A stretch of DNA of 64,000 nt from Planctomycetaceae bacterium (lineage in GTDB: Bacteria > Planctomycetota > Phycisphaerae > Phycisphaerales > SM1A02): the NCBI GenBank assembly GCA_947490615.1, contig CANLHK010000003.1, positions 248,001 through 312,000 of the forward strand. Direction: 5' to 3'. A program made the position numbers and the translations under genes. Positions 30,930-49,773 of the stretch are shown here, piece after piece. The notes beneath the pieces were generated by a model. The model saw nothing but the letters and a program-made list of their open reading frames with translations. It had not been told where the DNA came from and made no database searches. Numbering within the stretch: the first letter of the stretch is position 1; each line of letters opens with the position of its first letter.

Positions 30930-31013
30930 GCGGGCGTGGCGGAACTGGCAGACGCGCGGGATTTAGGTTCCCGTGGGGTAACACCCGTGCAGGTTCGATT
31001 CCTGTCGCCCGCA
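30930..31013 (+). tRNA. tRNA-Leu (anticodon UAG)
   Basis: An 84-base class II tRNA. Acceptor GCGGGCG (30930-30936) pairs with CGCCCGC (31006-31012) and the discriminator is A (31013). Anticodon stem CGGGA/TCCCG encloses the loop TTTAGGT, giving anticodon TAG. A long variable arm (TGGGGTAACACCC) and T-arm GCAGG-TTCGATT-CCTGT follow. The discriminator A73 and long variable arm fit leucine identity. CCA is not encoded. Confidence 0.95.
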
Positions 31014-46552: not shown

Positions 46553-47935
46553 CTAGTCTTTCGCGGGCGTCTTGGGTGAACTCGGCTTGGTGTCGGACTT
46601 CTTGACGGCGGGAGCCTTGGGCGCGGGTGGAGCGATCTTGGGCGACTCAATCTCGTAGTCGAAACCGCCTGCGCGTTGTCGTGTCCACTTGAGGACCAGT
46701 TCGCGCGGTTCAAGCCCGCGCGTCGTGATCGAAGGCGGCGTGGGATGTTCGGCTTCCCGCTTGCGATCCGCCGTCGTCTGTCGTCCGAGCTTGGGAGGAA
46801 GCAGATCGAAGACTGGTCGCACCTTCGCCAGCGCGTCCTGAGGGATCTCGAGGATGGCGGGGCTCGCTTCGATACTCGCGCTGCGGCCGTGCACGCTGAC
46901 CTCGGTCTTGAAGTTGCGTTCGCGAAGCTTGGCGATGAGGTCGTCGAGGCTCTCGACCTTGATACCCGCCTCGGAGAGCTCAGTCATGCCTTCGGCGAGG
47001 AAGGTCAAGCGCATCGCCGCGGTGCCGAGTGAAGAAGGCGTCGACGCGCGCGCCCAGGCTTTCCAGGTGTTCTCGAAACTCTTCACATCGTTGGTTTCAA
47101 ACGCCTCAACGAACGCGCGCTCGCTGGGCATGCCTGCGTGAATGCGACGGAGGTATCCCTCAAAAGCGCCTGCGTAGCGGCTGTTCTCTGCCCAACTCAG
47201 AAACTGCACCATCGACCAGGACTGCATGTACTGCACCGCCGCGCTGCCTGCGCGCACATTGGCATTCCACTCGTCGCTGGTCATGGTGAGGAGGCGAAGG
47301 AAGTCAATCGTCGTGCCCGCTTCGATGGCGGCTTTGATCGCTGCGACGGGCTCGGGGCTTGCTTGTCCCACGATGAGTCGACCGTCGATGACCAGCGCTT
47401 CACCGAAGTACTCGGCGAGTCCTTCATTGAGCCATGGAGGAAGCGTGCCGACAAACCGACTGTGCGCGTATTGGTGGAAGCCCTCGTGCTGCACCACATG
47501 AAAGACGCGCGATCGCGGCAATCCCTCGATGAAGAACGCCAGCGCCGCACCTTCGGGCGTGATGAAGAACATGCCGCCGCTCCCGGTGGCGTTGACGCCG
47601 TAGGTGTTGCGCAGCACGCTGAGGTAGTCCTGCTCCTTCGCGAACATCAAGACAAAGGGAATCTCAGGCGCGCGCTGCGCAAGGCTCGAAAGTCGTCGCG
47701 CGTACTCCTCGTAGATGAGATCCAGGTGCGCGCAGTAGACGCGCGACTCGTCCTGCGAGAGATCGCTGAGAATGCGGTAGTGCTTACTCCGAAGTTCGGC
47801 GCTAGGGCGCCAGCGCACCTCGCGCGGCGCGGACTGCTGCATGGCGGAAGAATCCCTGTTCGCGCTGAACGGCAGCGCGATGGTGACCATCCCGAGCAGG
47901 AGCCGAAGCAGGATCGAGGCAACGCGAGGAAACAT
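46553..47935 (-). CDS. DUF1570-like zinc metallopeptidase, exported
   Basis: 460 residues with a Sec signal (residues 1-25). Gluzincin active site H150-E151-x-x-H154 (HEGFH) and a downstream Glu in NEGLAEYFGE (E171 or E175) match peptidase MA-like/DUF1570 proteins of planctomycetes. The C-terminal 60 residues are Lys/Pro/Ala-rich (APPAPKAPAVKKSDTKPSSP), probably disordered or wall-associated. First gene of the operon with the ECF sigma factor (13 bases apart) and the kinase. Substrate unknown; the operon suggests a link to signalling. Confidence 0.85.
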   Translation of the reverse strand: MFPRVASILLRLLLGMVTIALPFSANRDSSAMQQSAPREVRWRPSAELRSKHYRILSDLSQDESRVYCAHLDLIYEEYARRLSSLAQRAPEIPFVLMFAKEQDYLSVLRNTYGVNATGSGGMFFITPEGAALAFFIEGLPRSRVFHVVQHEGFHQYAHSRFVGTLPPWLNEGLAEYFGEALVIDGRLIVGQASPEPVAAIKAAIEAGTTIDFLRLLTMTSDEWNANVRAGSAAVQYMQSWSMVQFLSWAENSRYAGAFEGYLRRIHAGMPSERAFVEAFETNDVKSFENTWKAWARASTPSSLGTAAMRLTFLAEGMTELSEAGIKVESLDDLIAKLRERNFKTEVSVHGRSASIEASPAILEIPQDALAKVRPVFDLLPPKLGRQTTADRKREAEHPTPPSITTRGLEPRELVLKWTRQRAGGFDYEIESPKIAPPAPKAPAVKKSDTKPSSPKTPAKD

Positions 47936-47941
47936 GGCGGC

Positions 47942-47947
47942 AGTCTA
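47942..47947 (-). promoter_or_regulatory. -10 box TAGACT of the peptidase/sigma/kinase operon
   Basis: TAGACT on the minus strand ends exactly six bases before the ATG at 47935. Confidence 0.55.
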
Positions 47948-48099
47948 AAGGACCGTCGGCCTTGGACTTGCTCAAGTTGCTCCTCGAAGCCCCGTCAACG
48001 GGCGCGTCTTCACCCCATAACTCGACCGCAGCAAAGACAGACGGCGAGCGAGCTTGGAAAATTCTCGAAATCCCGTTCTGCACGCCACACAGGAGGGCG

Positions 48100-48428
48100 A
48101 ATGGCGGAACAATGACGGTGTCGTCGAAAGTCGACACCACGGGCGAAGTTAGGGACTCGCTCGTGTTCGCAGGCCTTTGGGTTGAGGGACCTGAAGGCAG
48201 GCGGAGGTAAAAAGGGACAGCGATTCGATTCGTCGAATCGCTCGTGAACGGCGGAAAGGGAACCCGCCGCTCACAGACTCACTCGCGAGGAAACTCGCGG
48301 ATGAAGTCGGAGGGTATCGAGCCTCGGAAACGAGCTCGAGACAAGGGACGCTGGCTTGCTGGGAAGCTCGTCAGTGAAACAAAGGGGTCCAACGGCGCAC
48401 CGTAAAGGGGGCGCCGTTGGTCGTTTTT
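48100..48428 (+). ncRNA. Candidate structured small RNA, novel
   Basis: Six stem-loops follow one another on the plus strand: GGTGTCG/CGACACC (48117-48138); AGCGATTCGA/TCGAATCGCT with a TTCG tetraloop (48219-48242); GTGA-A-CGGCGG paired with CCGCCG-C-TCAC (48244-48274); CGCGAG/CTCGCG with a GAAA loop (48284-48299); a nine-pair stem with one bulged C and a GAAA loop (48317-48339); then the intrinsic terminator at 48389-48428. Fourteen GGA trinucleotides occur between 48091 and 48363, several in hairpin loops, and AGGGAC recurs four times between stems. The 5' end is a guess. It does not match tmRNA, RNase P, SRP RNA or 6S RNA by eye. Confidence 0.5.
48389..48428 (+). terminator. Intrinsic terminator
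   Basis: CCAACGGCGC (48389-48398) pairs perfectly with GCGCCGTTGG (48411-48420), twelve-base loop, then TCGTTTTT. The best intrinsic terminator in the window, yet no plus-strand protein gene precedes it, which is the main argument for an RNA gene upstream. Confidence 0.85.
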
Positions 48429-48606: not shown

Positions 48607-49773
48607 ATGAGCACCGCGCCCGCAGCCGTTCCGTCCCCGAAGCCTGTTGATACGCGCGGCCTCGCCGGACAGACCGTCGGCGAGACCTCGATTTGCGCGG
48701 TGACGCAGACGGAACTCATCTACCGCGGCTACGAGATCGCTGATCTTGCCGAACACGCGAGCTTTGAAGAAGTCGCCTTCCTGCTTCTCGTCGGACACAA
48801 GCCAACCACCGCAGAGCTCAGCGCCTTCAAGACTGAAGTCGCTTCGATGCGCGCGATTCCGACAAGCGTGCGTGACGCCATCGTGCGCGTCGCCAAGGAG
48901 AGCCCCAAGGCGCACCCGATGTCGATCCTGCGCACGGGCGTTTCGCTCTTGTCGCATCTCGATCCTGACTGCGAGGACAACTCGCCCGCTGCAGGCTTGC
49001 GAAAGTCCAAGCGGCTTCTCGCGCAGATTCCCACCATCATCGGTGCGTGTCAGCGCACGCTCGATGGCGCGTCGCCTGTCGAACCCGACGCGTCGCTGGG
49101 ACATTCTGCGAATCTGCTCTGGGCGATCACGGGCAAGAAGCCCGACGAGCTCGCCGCGCGCATCATGGATGTTTCGCTCGTGCTCTACGCCGAGCACGAC
49201 TTCAACGCGAGCACCTTCTCTTGCCGCACCATCGCCTCGACCGAGACCGACATGCACAGCGCGGTCTGCGGCGGCATCGGCGCGCTCAAGGGTCCGCTGC
49301 ACGGTGGAGCCAACGAGATGGCGATGGAGATGCTCAAGGACATCGACCGCGATTGCGCAGGCGGAAAGCTGACCGTCGACGCGTGGATGCAGCGCGCGTT
49401 TGTCGAGAAGCGCAAGCTCATGGGCTTTGGTCACCGCGTCTACAAGAACGGCGATCACCGCGCGGGGATCCTCCGCCGCTGGGGTCTCAAACTCGCCGAA
49501 CAGCAGGGGCCATCGAGTAAGAAGTGGTTTGACATGGGCGACGCGGTGCAGGCGATCATGCTGCGCGACAAGAACATCCATCCCAATGTCGACTTCCCCT
49601 GCGGCATGACCTACTTCATCATGGGCATCCCCGTGCCGCAGTACACGCCGATCTTCGTGGCCAGCCGCATCACCGGTTGGTGCGCGCACATCATGGAGCA
49701 GCACGCGAGCAATCGCATCATCCGTCCGCTTGCTGAGTATCGCGGGCCGATGGGTCTCACCTGGAACGGGTGA
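48607..49773 (+). CDS. prpC: 2-methylcitrate/citrate synthase
   Basis: 388 residues with a clear AAGGAG ribosome site. The small citrate-synthase type (about 380 residues) shared with methylcitrate synthases: LIYRGYEIADLAEHASFEEV at the start, ending near residue 65, GGIGALKGPLHGGANE with the first active-site His, MGFGHRVYKNGDHRA with the second, and the Asp region near YTPIFVASRITGW. Joins oxaloacetate with propionyl-CoA or acetyl-CoA. The PrpB-like gene nearby favours the methylcitrate role, but the dual-specificity alternative cannot be excluded by sequence. Confidence 0.88.
   Translation: MSTAPAAVPSPKPVDTRGLAGQTVGETSICAVTQTELIYRGYEIADLAEHASFEEVAFLLLVGHKPTTAELSAFKTEVASMRAIPTSVRDAIVRVAKESPKAHPMSILRTGVSLLSHLDPDCEDNSPAAGLRKSKRLLAQIPTIIGACQRTLDGASPVEPDASLGHSANLLWAITGKKPDELAARIMDVSLVLYAEHDFNASTFSCRTIASTETDMHSAVCGGIGALKGPLHGGANEMAMEMLKDIDRDCAGGKLTVDAWMQRAFVEKRKLMGFGHRVYKNGDHRAGILRRWGLKLAEQQGPSSKKWFDMGDAVQAIMLRDKNIHPNVDFPCGMTYFIMGIPVPQYTPIFVASRITGWCAHIMEQHASNRIIRPLAEYRGPMGLTWNG

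Follow-up and report, generated by a model that had tools for sequence, protein, structure and literature searches.

What does the gap between a minus-strand gene (46553-47935) and gltA (48607-49773) encode in the 64,000-nucleotide stretch of DNA analysed here, referred to as the window? The original prediction, made from the letters alone, placed in this gap a chain of stem-loops closed by an intrinsic terminator and proposed a candidate novel sRNA, possibly a sponge of the CsrA type. By comparison among relatives, the gap holds a structured RNA restricted to one genus of uncultured planctomycetes, with its own terminator and a repeated AGGGA(C) motif, referred to below as the AGGGA-loop RNA.

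A chain of hairpins between a DUF1570 gene and gltA

The gap spans 671 bases, in agreement with the roughly 670 first noted. The minus-strand gene on one side matches Pfam DUF1570 above the cut-off and a peptidase family below it, and gltA, on the other side, is the citrate synthase gene. The description of the gap as free of plus-strand protein genes needs qualifying: plus-strand open reading frames (e.g. 47138-48115 and 47962-48210) extend mechanically into it, and none of those reaching in gives any sign of being a real gene. A homologue of the DUF1570 gene lies upstream of the RNA in 16/16 genomes, with an identity of 30% in one and 56-73% in the other relatives, and gltA is present on the same fetched locus as the RNA in 12 genomes. 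In four genomes (G003, G004, G011 and G013) an open frame on the opposite strand, 224-245 aa long and starting like a lipoprotein, separates the RNA from gltA.

The region 48091-48428 has a minimum free energy of -162.6 kcal/mol, compared with -121.3 +/- 5.3 for dinucleotide shuffles (z -7.8), and none of 100 shuffles folds as well. The chain of hairpins is as first described in kind, if not in number, since the predicted fold comprises eight hairpins plus the terminator rather than six hairpins. The features are as follows.

48108-48113, plus strand: putative -10 promoter element AACAAT; -10-like hexamers lie ahead of H1 in 16 copies
48114-48428, plus strand: the sRNA (AGGGA-loop RNA), about 310 nt here, delimited by fold, genus conservation and terminal T-run
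48117-48138, plus strand: hairpin H1, the 5' hairpin, variable in stem and loop sequence
48139-48164, plus strand: hairpin H2, whose loop contains an invariant TTAGGGA
48166-48205, plus strand: hairpin H3, a long stem with an invariant GGTTGAGGGACC at its tip
48206-48218, plus strand: linker GGTAAAAAGGGAC, invariant in 16/16 copies
48219-48242, plus strand: hairpin H4, variable in stem sequence and free of AGGGA
48244-48274, plus strand: hairpin H5, with the nine-base loop AAAGGGAAC, almost invariant
48276-48308, plus strand: hairpin H6, with the loop GGAA here and mostly GGGGACG or GAGGACG in relatives
48314-48342, plus strand: hairpin H7, part of the 3' extension, in long forms only
48349-48376, plus strand: hairpin H8, part of the 3' extension, with a TGGGAA tip here and pairs that covary
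48389-48428, plus strand: intrinsic terminator, with a ten-pair outer stem and T-tract

The terminator retains the ten pairs attributed to it, as an outer stem within 48389-48420 followed by TCGTTTTT; it is not perfect, having internal mismatches and a larger apex. A simple terminator scan, whose rule accepts loops of 3-8 only, does not list this mismatched, large-apex structure. The only site that it lists is on the minus strand, against 2.3 to be expected by chance over the scanned stretch; H4 plus the linker, read on the minus strand (48219-48242), resembles a terminator of this kind. All 16 copies, as delimited by eye, end in a terminator-like hairpin with a T-run of 4-7, at differing hairpins. 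The RNA is modular at its 3' end: it stops at H6 in four genomes (G004, G005, G007 and G015), where that hairpin is itself the terminator, continues for one more hairpin in G010, and has a long 3' extension in eleven. As delimited in this analysis, the relatives' copies measure 196-354 nt.

The -10-like element before H1 reads AACAAT, AAGAAT, AATAAT, GAGAAT or GACAAT across the 16 copies, and a strict sigma-70 promoter scan found no promoter for the RNA. The 5' end of the transcript probably lies at about 48117-48121, directly 3' of AACAAT, in which case 48091-48116 would be the promoter. The plus strand is assigned as the RNA because 90 of the 717 cells of the pair table (added up by hand) are G-U and would turn into A-C on the opposite strand; the T-tract also lies 3' of the last hairpin on the plus strand. 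The opposite strand folds well too (z -8.7). Judged from these sequence signals, the RNA would be transcribed on its own.

Conservation and covariation within one genus

A blastn search found the RNA in 16 of 61 genomes, namely all 16 of the genus, our own included, and no homologue in the 45 other relatives. A covariance model built on the core H3-H6 likewise finds one copy per genome in 16/16 genus genomes. With stricter filters, under which weak matches are lost, it finds none in 165 other genomes of the family and matches 2 of 392 genomes in a sample of the phylum, both of them genus members (0/390 others). An exact pattern gave 16 matches in a named genome collection, most labelled planctomycete or uncultured bacterium and some labelled oddly. 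The match labelled Deltaproteobacteria (L075) lacks the neighbouring RNA and looks like chance; three RNA-carrying public contigs labelled Candidatus Kuenenia or Limnohabitans (L071, L073 and L080) are probably mislabelled or chimeric MAGs.

Over 45 core pairs and 16 sequences, 97.6% of cells are paired. The original prediction had looked to covariation and conservation among relatives, and both are found: besides the presence of the RNA throughout the genus, 20 of the 45 core pairs, located in H3, H4 and H6, show changes on both sides, a count of non-independent events given that the 16 copies are related. None of 500 shuffles is as high on any of five covariation measures, and slid versions of the alignment all score far lower. 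Changes on both sides occur in 3/14 pairs of H3, 7/10 of H4 and 10/11 of H6. In H5, 8/10 pairs never vary and none changes on both sides; this hairpin hardly varies and therefore offers no covariation evidence either way. Compensatory changes in the aligned sequences thus support three of the four core helices. In the full alignment at least one double change occurs in 47 of 81 predicted pairs, including six of six predicted pairs of H2, where some cells are broken. Amid the variable stems, TTAGGGA (H2), GGTTGAGGGACC (H3), GGTAAAAAGGGAC (linker) and CGGCGGAAAGGGAACC (H5) are invariant. An extra helix proposed by RNAalifold, pairing GGAGGT beside the linker with the 3' side of H6, was omitted from the model.

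At the gathering threshold, Rfam 15 reports only a tRNA (30930-31013) in the whole window, and the AGGGA-loop RNA matches no known family, the other outcome on which its novelty hung. Searches at E up to 5 return snoZ206, sX2, sraL and sobemo_FSE, all below their gathering scores and ascribed to chance. The comparative evidence indicates that the AGGGA-loop RNA is real; it defines a structured family that is well supported and absent from Rfam, and whose function we infer. The proposal of a candidate novel sRNA thus holds up on conservation, covariation, the promoter-like element, the terminator and the lack of an Rfam family at threshold.

AGGGA rather than GGA is the enriched element

Counting confirms the 14 GGA and four AGGGAC reported at 48091-48428. 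The GGA excess of about twice chance does not survive, since dinucleotide shuffles of 48114-48428 average 10.7 GGA and the sequence itself has 12 (P 0.35). Across the 16 copies, P is below 0.05 in five and 0.054-0.056 in two more. The GGA density is about 2.6 times the genome-sample average (12 vs 4.6 per 315 nt) because of local composition. AGGGA is in excess: the window's copy has 5 against 0.7 expected, a count reached by 0/500 shuffles, and P does not exceed 0.002 in any of the 16 copies. The five sites of the window's copy are listed here.

48151-48155, plus strand: AGGGA element 1, in the H2 loop, identified by enrichment; its complement GUCCCU is enriched in PEP-CTERM-like leaders
48185-48189, plus strand: AGGGA in H3
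48213-48217, plus strand: AGGGA in the linker after H3
48257-48261, plus strand: AGGGA in H5
48344-48348, plus strand: AGGGA in the linker between H7 and H8

AGGGA occupies four invariant places in 16/16 copies, the tips of two hairpins, a linker and another loop each presenting AGGGA(C); the longer 3' extensions carry extra copies, for a range of four to eight AGGGA per RNA. The placement of GGA in loops proved correct, as the AGGGA of H2, H3, H5 and the linkers have unpaired probabilities of 0.61-0.98 in the window's copy, and that of H5 reaches 0.97-0.98 in the four copies computed.

A pattern of three AGGGA spaced by 10-40 nt gives 8 overlapping matches in our own genome, which reduce to just four sites: the AGGGA-loop RNA itself, one region below the flagellin genes, and two positions antisense to leaders of PEP-CTERM-like genes. 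Across the genus, 7 of 30 triple-AGGGA loci fetched, among the matches listed, are antisense to PEP-CTERM-like leaders, including loci of G006 and G011; the built-in control of this search is uninformative, since the pattern reads identically backwards. Among the matches listed, 35 triple-AGGGA matches fall in G004 and 1-19 in each of the other 15 genomes; its contigs C46, C47 and C13 hold tandem arrays of units containing AGGGAC or AGGGAA. A further cluster in the sample, L126, likewise lies antisense to the leader of a PEP-CTERM-like gene. Because triple AGGGA lies antisense to such leaders, the leaders themselves carry repeated GUCCCU, the exact complement of AGGGAC.

The complement of the repeat in PEP-CTERM-like leaders

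PEP-CTERM-like genes were collected with Pfam PF07589 at permissive E-values, 22 of the 98 places lying above the curated cut-off, and their start codons were picked by a score. RNA-bearing genomes gave 20 (G000), 26 (G013) and 17 (G001) matches, and two RNA-lacking genomes from two genera gave 23 (G024) and 12 (G034). When all hexamers are counted in 54 leaders of the three RNA-bearing genomes, with the last 18 nt removed, GTCCCT comes out on top (32 vs 5.0, z 12). It remains on top without the three leaders that gave rise to the idea (24 vs 4.2 in 51 leaders) and in G001 plus G013 alone (22 vs 3.1 in 37 leaders).

Over 150 nt, the RNA-bearing genomes have 12 GTCCCT in 17 leaders, 6 in 14 and 18 in 23, whereas the RNA-lacking ones have 0 in 21 and 1 in 11. 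In terms of leaders, GTCCCT is present in 21/53 RNA-bearing and 1/32 RNA-lacking cases (Fisher P 1e-4), a comparison confounded by phylogeny because the RNA-lacking side consists of two genomes only. The contrast persists without the idea-giving leaders (18/50, P 4e-4), with the strict C-terminal motif only (21/52 vs 1/32) and with genes above the Pfam cut-off only (6/12 vs 0/8, P 0.04). By comparison, 387 non-PEP leaders of our own genome, taken from crude gene calls (long open frames), contain 11 GTCCCT. The sites lie less than 100 nt from the start codon in 33 of 36 cases, and the unpaired probability is higher at 58 TCCCT sites (0.67) than over the leaders containing them (0.45). Among 20 pairs of ortholog leaders, some of which share a member, TCCCT is found in both partners in 7, in one in 4 and in neither in 9.

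The best predicted duplexes with exposed segments of the sRNA set PEP-CTERM leaders only weakly apart from the other leaders of our own genome (P 0.05), and G034, which lacks the RNA, reaches energies as good as those of the RNA-bearing genomes. Perfect complements of at least 7 occur in 7/17, 6/14 and 10/23 RNA-bearing leaders, and in 2/21 and, for G034, 3/11 RNA-lacking ones. The top hexamer of the 11 G034 leaders (at loci among L213-L281) is TCTCTC (20 vs 2.1), for which reason C/U-rich leaders may be a habit of this family, with lineage-specific letters and no sRNA partner. GTCCCT is absent from 32/53 RNA-bearing leaders.

AGGGA itself appears in 13/53 RNA-bearing and 3/32 RNA-lacking leaders (P 0.10), a modest enrichment (11 vs 5.3, z 2.4), and the final 25 nt before the start codon contain 13 sites over 54 leaders. 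Of 53 leaders, 22 carry TCCCT only, 11 AGGGA only, 2 both and 18 neither; the AGGGA-carrying leaders are left unexplained by pairing. Some leaders (in L198, L209, L250 and L159) have AGGGA linkers and CGGGAA hairpins and resemble the sRNA at H8. NNGGAN hexaloops show no clear enrichment, with 7/54 PEP-CTERM-like leaders against 26/387 others; three of the seven are CGGGAA.

Proposed function of the AGGGA-loop RNA

Based on the above data, we propose that the AGGGA-loop RNA may act as a multivalent base-pairing sRNA for PEP-CTERM mRNAs, a reading whose chances we consider evenly balanced. Its AGGGAC would pair with GUCCCU in the leaders of PEP-CTERM-like (exosortase-sorted) surface proteins of the same genus, each target leader offering one to several copies of GUCCCU, mostly less than 100 nt from the start codon. 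Individually weak pairings of 6-9 bp might then, in combination, control the translation or stability of these mRNAs, and either repression or activation would be possible. Both the pairing and the regulation of PEP-CTERM mRNAs are what we infer from the leader sequences.

If this is true, a repeat-to-repeat code lets one sRNA co-ordinate a family of sorted surface proteins, and control of the PEP-CTERM secretion system becomes testable with reporters. In the literature searched, which subscription papers largely fall outside, we found neither an sRNA regulator of PEP-CTERM proteins nor a planctomycete study of such an RNA. Even with the wrong partner, the RNA is a structured family that is well supported and offers a clean, testable motif.

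Alternative readings

The sponge first suggested, in which AGGGA loops and linkers titrate CsrA dimers away from mRNAs in the manner of CsrB or RsmY/Z, is possible and not favoured; we regard it as unlikely. It draws on the two csrA genes that the genome proved to contain when checked (84.9 and 51.9 bits), one beside fliW and flagellin genes and the other beside mraZ; the csrA-1 protein contains VHRKE, which we take to correspond to the R44 region of E. coli CsrA. The minimal core of a CsrA site is ANGGA, and AGGGA fits it. The RNA does present GGA in loops, among them the CGGGAA hexaloop of H8, with GGA at loop positions 3-5, in 10/11 long forms (all but this copy), and AGGGA lies near the start codon of some PEP-CTERM-like leaders, some of which combine AGGGA linkers with a CGGGAA hairpin.

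Against these points stand the lack of a GGA excess in this copy and the kind of site that the RNA carries. In 14 csrA leaders and 26 flagellin leaders, whose status as targets is presumed, likely CsrA sites can be recognized just before the gene. A hairpin GGGC-A(C/T)GGA(T/A)-GCCC directly precedes the csrA start in 13/14 genomes (e.g. L018, upstream of 1656 (-)), and its conservation suggests autoregulation of csrA by CsrA in the genus. The flagellin leaders carry TCAAGGAGGATT in 14/14 and TCACGGAGGACA in 12/12 before the start, with AAGGAGG and ACGGAGG as the likely sites. Both sets presumably fit the CsrA/RsmA consensus. None of these likely sites has G as the N of ANGGA, whereas G takes this place in 89/93 ANGGA of the 16 RNAs, which as related copies are non-independent, and it is on this ground that we rank the sponge below the pairing model. 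Moreover, csrA occurs in 60/61 relatives, including 44 of the 45 without the RNA by blastn, and FliW (Pfam PF02623) is encoded beside csrA; FliW is reported to be anti-correlated with CsrB/C RNAs (PMC4894983). The Csr/Rsm models of Rfam give no match at the gathering score and are not among the four matches up to E 5. The sponge also leaves the GUCCCU enrichment unexplained, and at the level of sequence the exact hexamer is better explained by base pairing. A single sRNA can nevertheless both pair and bind CsrA, as the LhrC paper (PMC4132741) cites for McaS.

Nowhere in the 464 kb sampled is AGGGA more densely clustered than in the region below the flagellin genes. This region was considered as a second sponge, which it may or may not be, as on alignment it proves to hold a small gene whose leader and 3' part are rich in AGGGA. 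This small open frame (L113:13420-14200 (-), corresponding to G000:C1 ~73420-74200) lies below fliW-csrA-fliC1-fliC2 and encodes 133 aa here and 139-191 aa in the five relatives translated, with no Pfam match. Its leader GGAGGGAGGG(A/T)CCCTC...AGGGAGAGA recurs in nine genomes and, in part, in G015, and its 3' part is AGGGA-rich in five.

It is somewhat less likely again that the RNA serves as a scaffold or sponge for some other protein, one that would bind AGGGA both here and in the AGGGA-type PEP-CTERM-like leaders. The AGGGA linkers and occasional CGGGAA hairpins common to the sRNA and some of these leaders would be accounted for, as would the AGGGA clusters below flagellar genes; on the other side, no candidate protein can be named, and the enrichment of AGGGA in the leaders is modest, as given above. 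No more probable than this scaffold is a two-sided switch, in which the AGGGA loops would either pair with GUCCCU leaders or compete for a factor (CsrA or another) recognizing AGGGA in leaders. The two sets of PEP-CTERM mRNAs, which overlap little, would then be driven oppositely. If such a switch exists, the exosortase/PEP-CTERM system would have an sRNA regulator whose multivalent pairing is inverted in polarity.

We consider it improbable that the RNA is an unrelated structured RNA (e.g. a ribozyme, or one associated with the ribosome or polymerase) its AGGGA repeats serving the fold and its match to GUCCCU being fortuitous. In favour of this reading, sequence conservation in the H3 tip, linker and H5 is strong and goes beyond AGGGA; against it, the top hexamer at other loci, from a count of all hexamers, is the exact complement of the repeated one. 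Finally, a cis-acting gltA leader (riboswitch or attenuator), to which the shared strand, the position upstream of gltA in the 12 genomes with both on the locus and the separation of 178 bases here could point, is largely refuted and was rejected as most improbable, given a gap to gltA of about 112 to 1382 bases over those 12 genomes, the terminator-like end in 16/16 copies and the opposite-strand frame of at least 224 aa that intervenes in four of the 12.

Comparison with known systems

The pairing model can be set beside several known RNAs, as the cited papers describe them. One is sX13 of Xanthomonas, which has stable stems and a repeated motif in several loops, whose complementary motif is enriched near target start codons, in several copies in some targets, and which is reported to act without Hfq (PMC3771888). 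The AGGGA-loop RNA likewise repeats one motif in several loops and linkers, and the complement GTCCCT is the top hexamer of the PEP-CTERM-like leaders, its predicted targets. The polarity differs, sX13 having C-rich loops and G-rich targets, while the AGGGA-loop RNA is G-rich and its proposed targets are C-rich (GUCCCU). In addition, sX13 has been demonstrated experimentally and the AGGGA-loop RNA is known from sequence, the two being compared by description plus Rfam scans.

In LhrC of Listeria the redundant motifs lie partly in loops and partly in an unpaired segment that joins stems (PMC4132741), an arrangement that the AGGGA-loop RNA shares in its loops and inter-stem linker. In LhrC, however, three UCCC motifs face a G-rich site and the RNA exists in five copies, whereas each genome has the AGGGA-loop RNA once, and the RNA bears four to eight AGGGA. 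RepG of Helicobacter pylori is aimed at a G-repeat in an mRNA leader (PMC8295292); the resemblance lies in an sRNA directed at a leader repeat, and the difference in that the repeat proposed here is C-rich and found in many leaders. CsrB/CsrC and RsmX/Y/Z consist of hairpins with GGA in loops and single-stranded stretches (PMC7652899), as GGA is placed in the hairpin loops and linkers of the AGGGA-loop RNA. The latter differs from them in having no Rfam match, no GGA excess in this copy and sites that are nearly all AGGGA, and in coming from a different phylum with FliW present.
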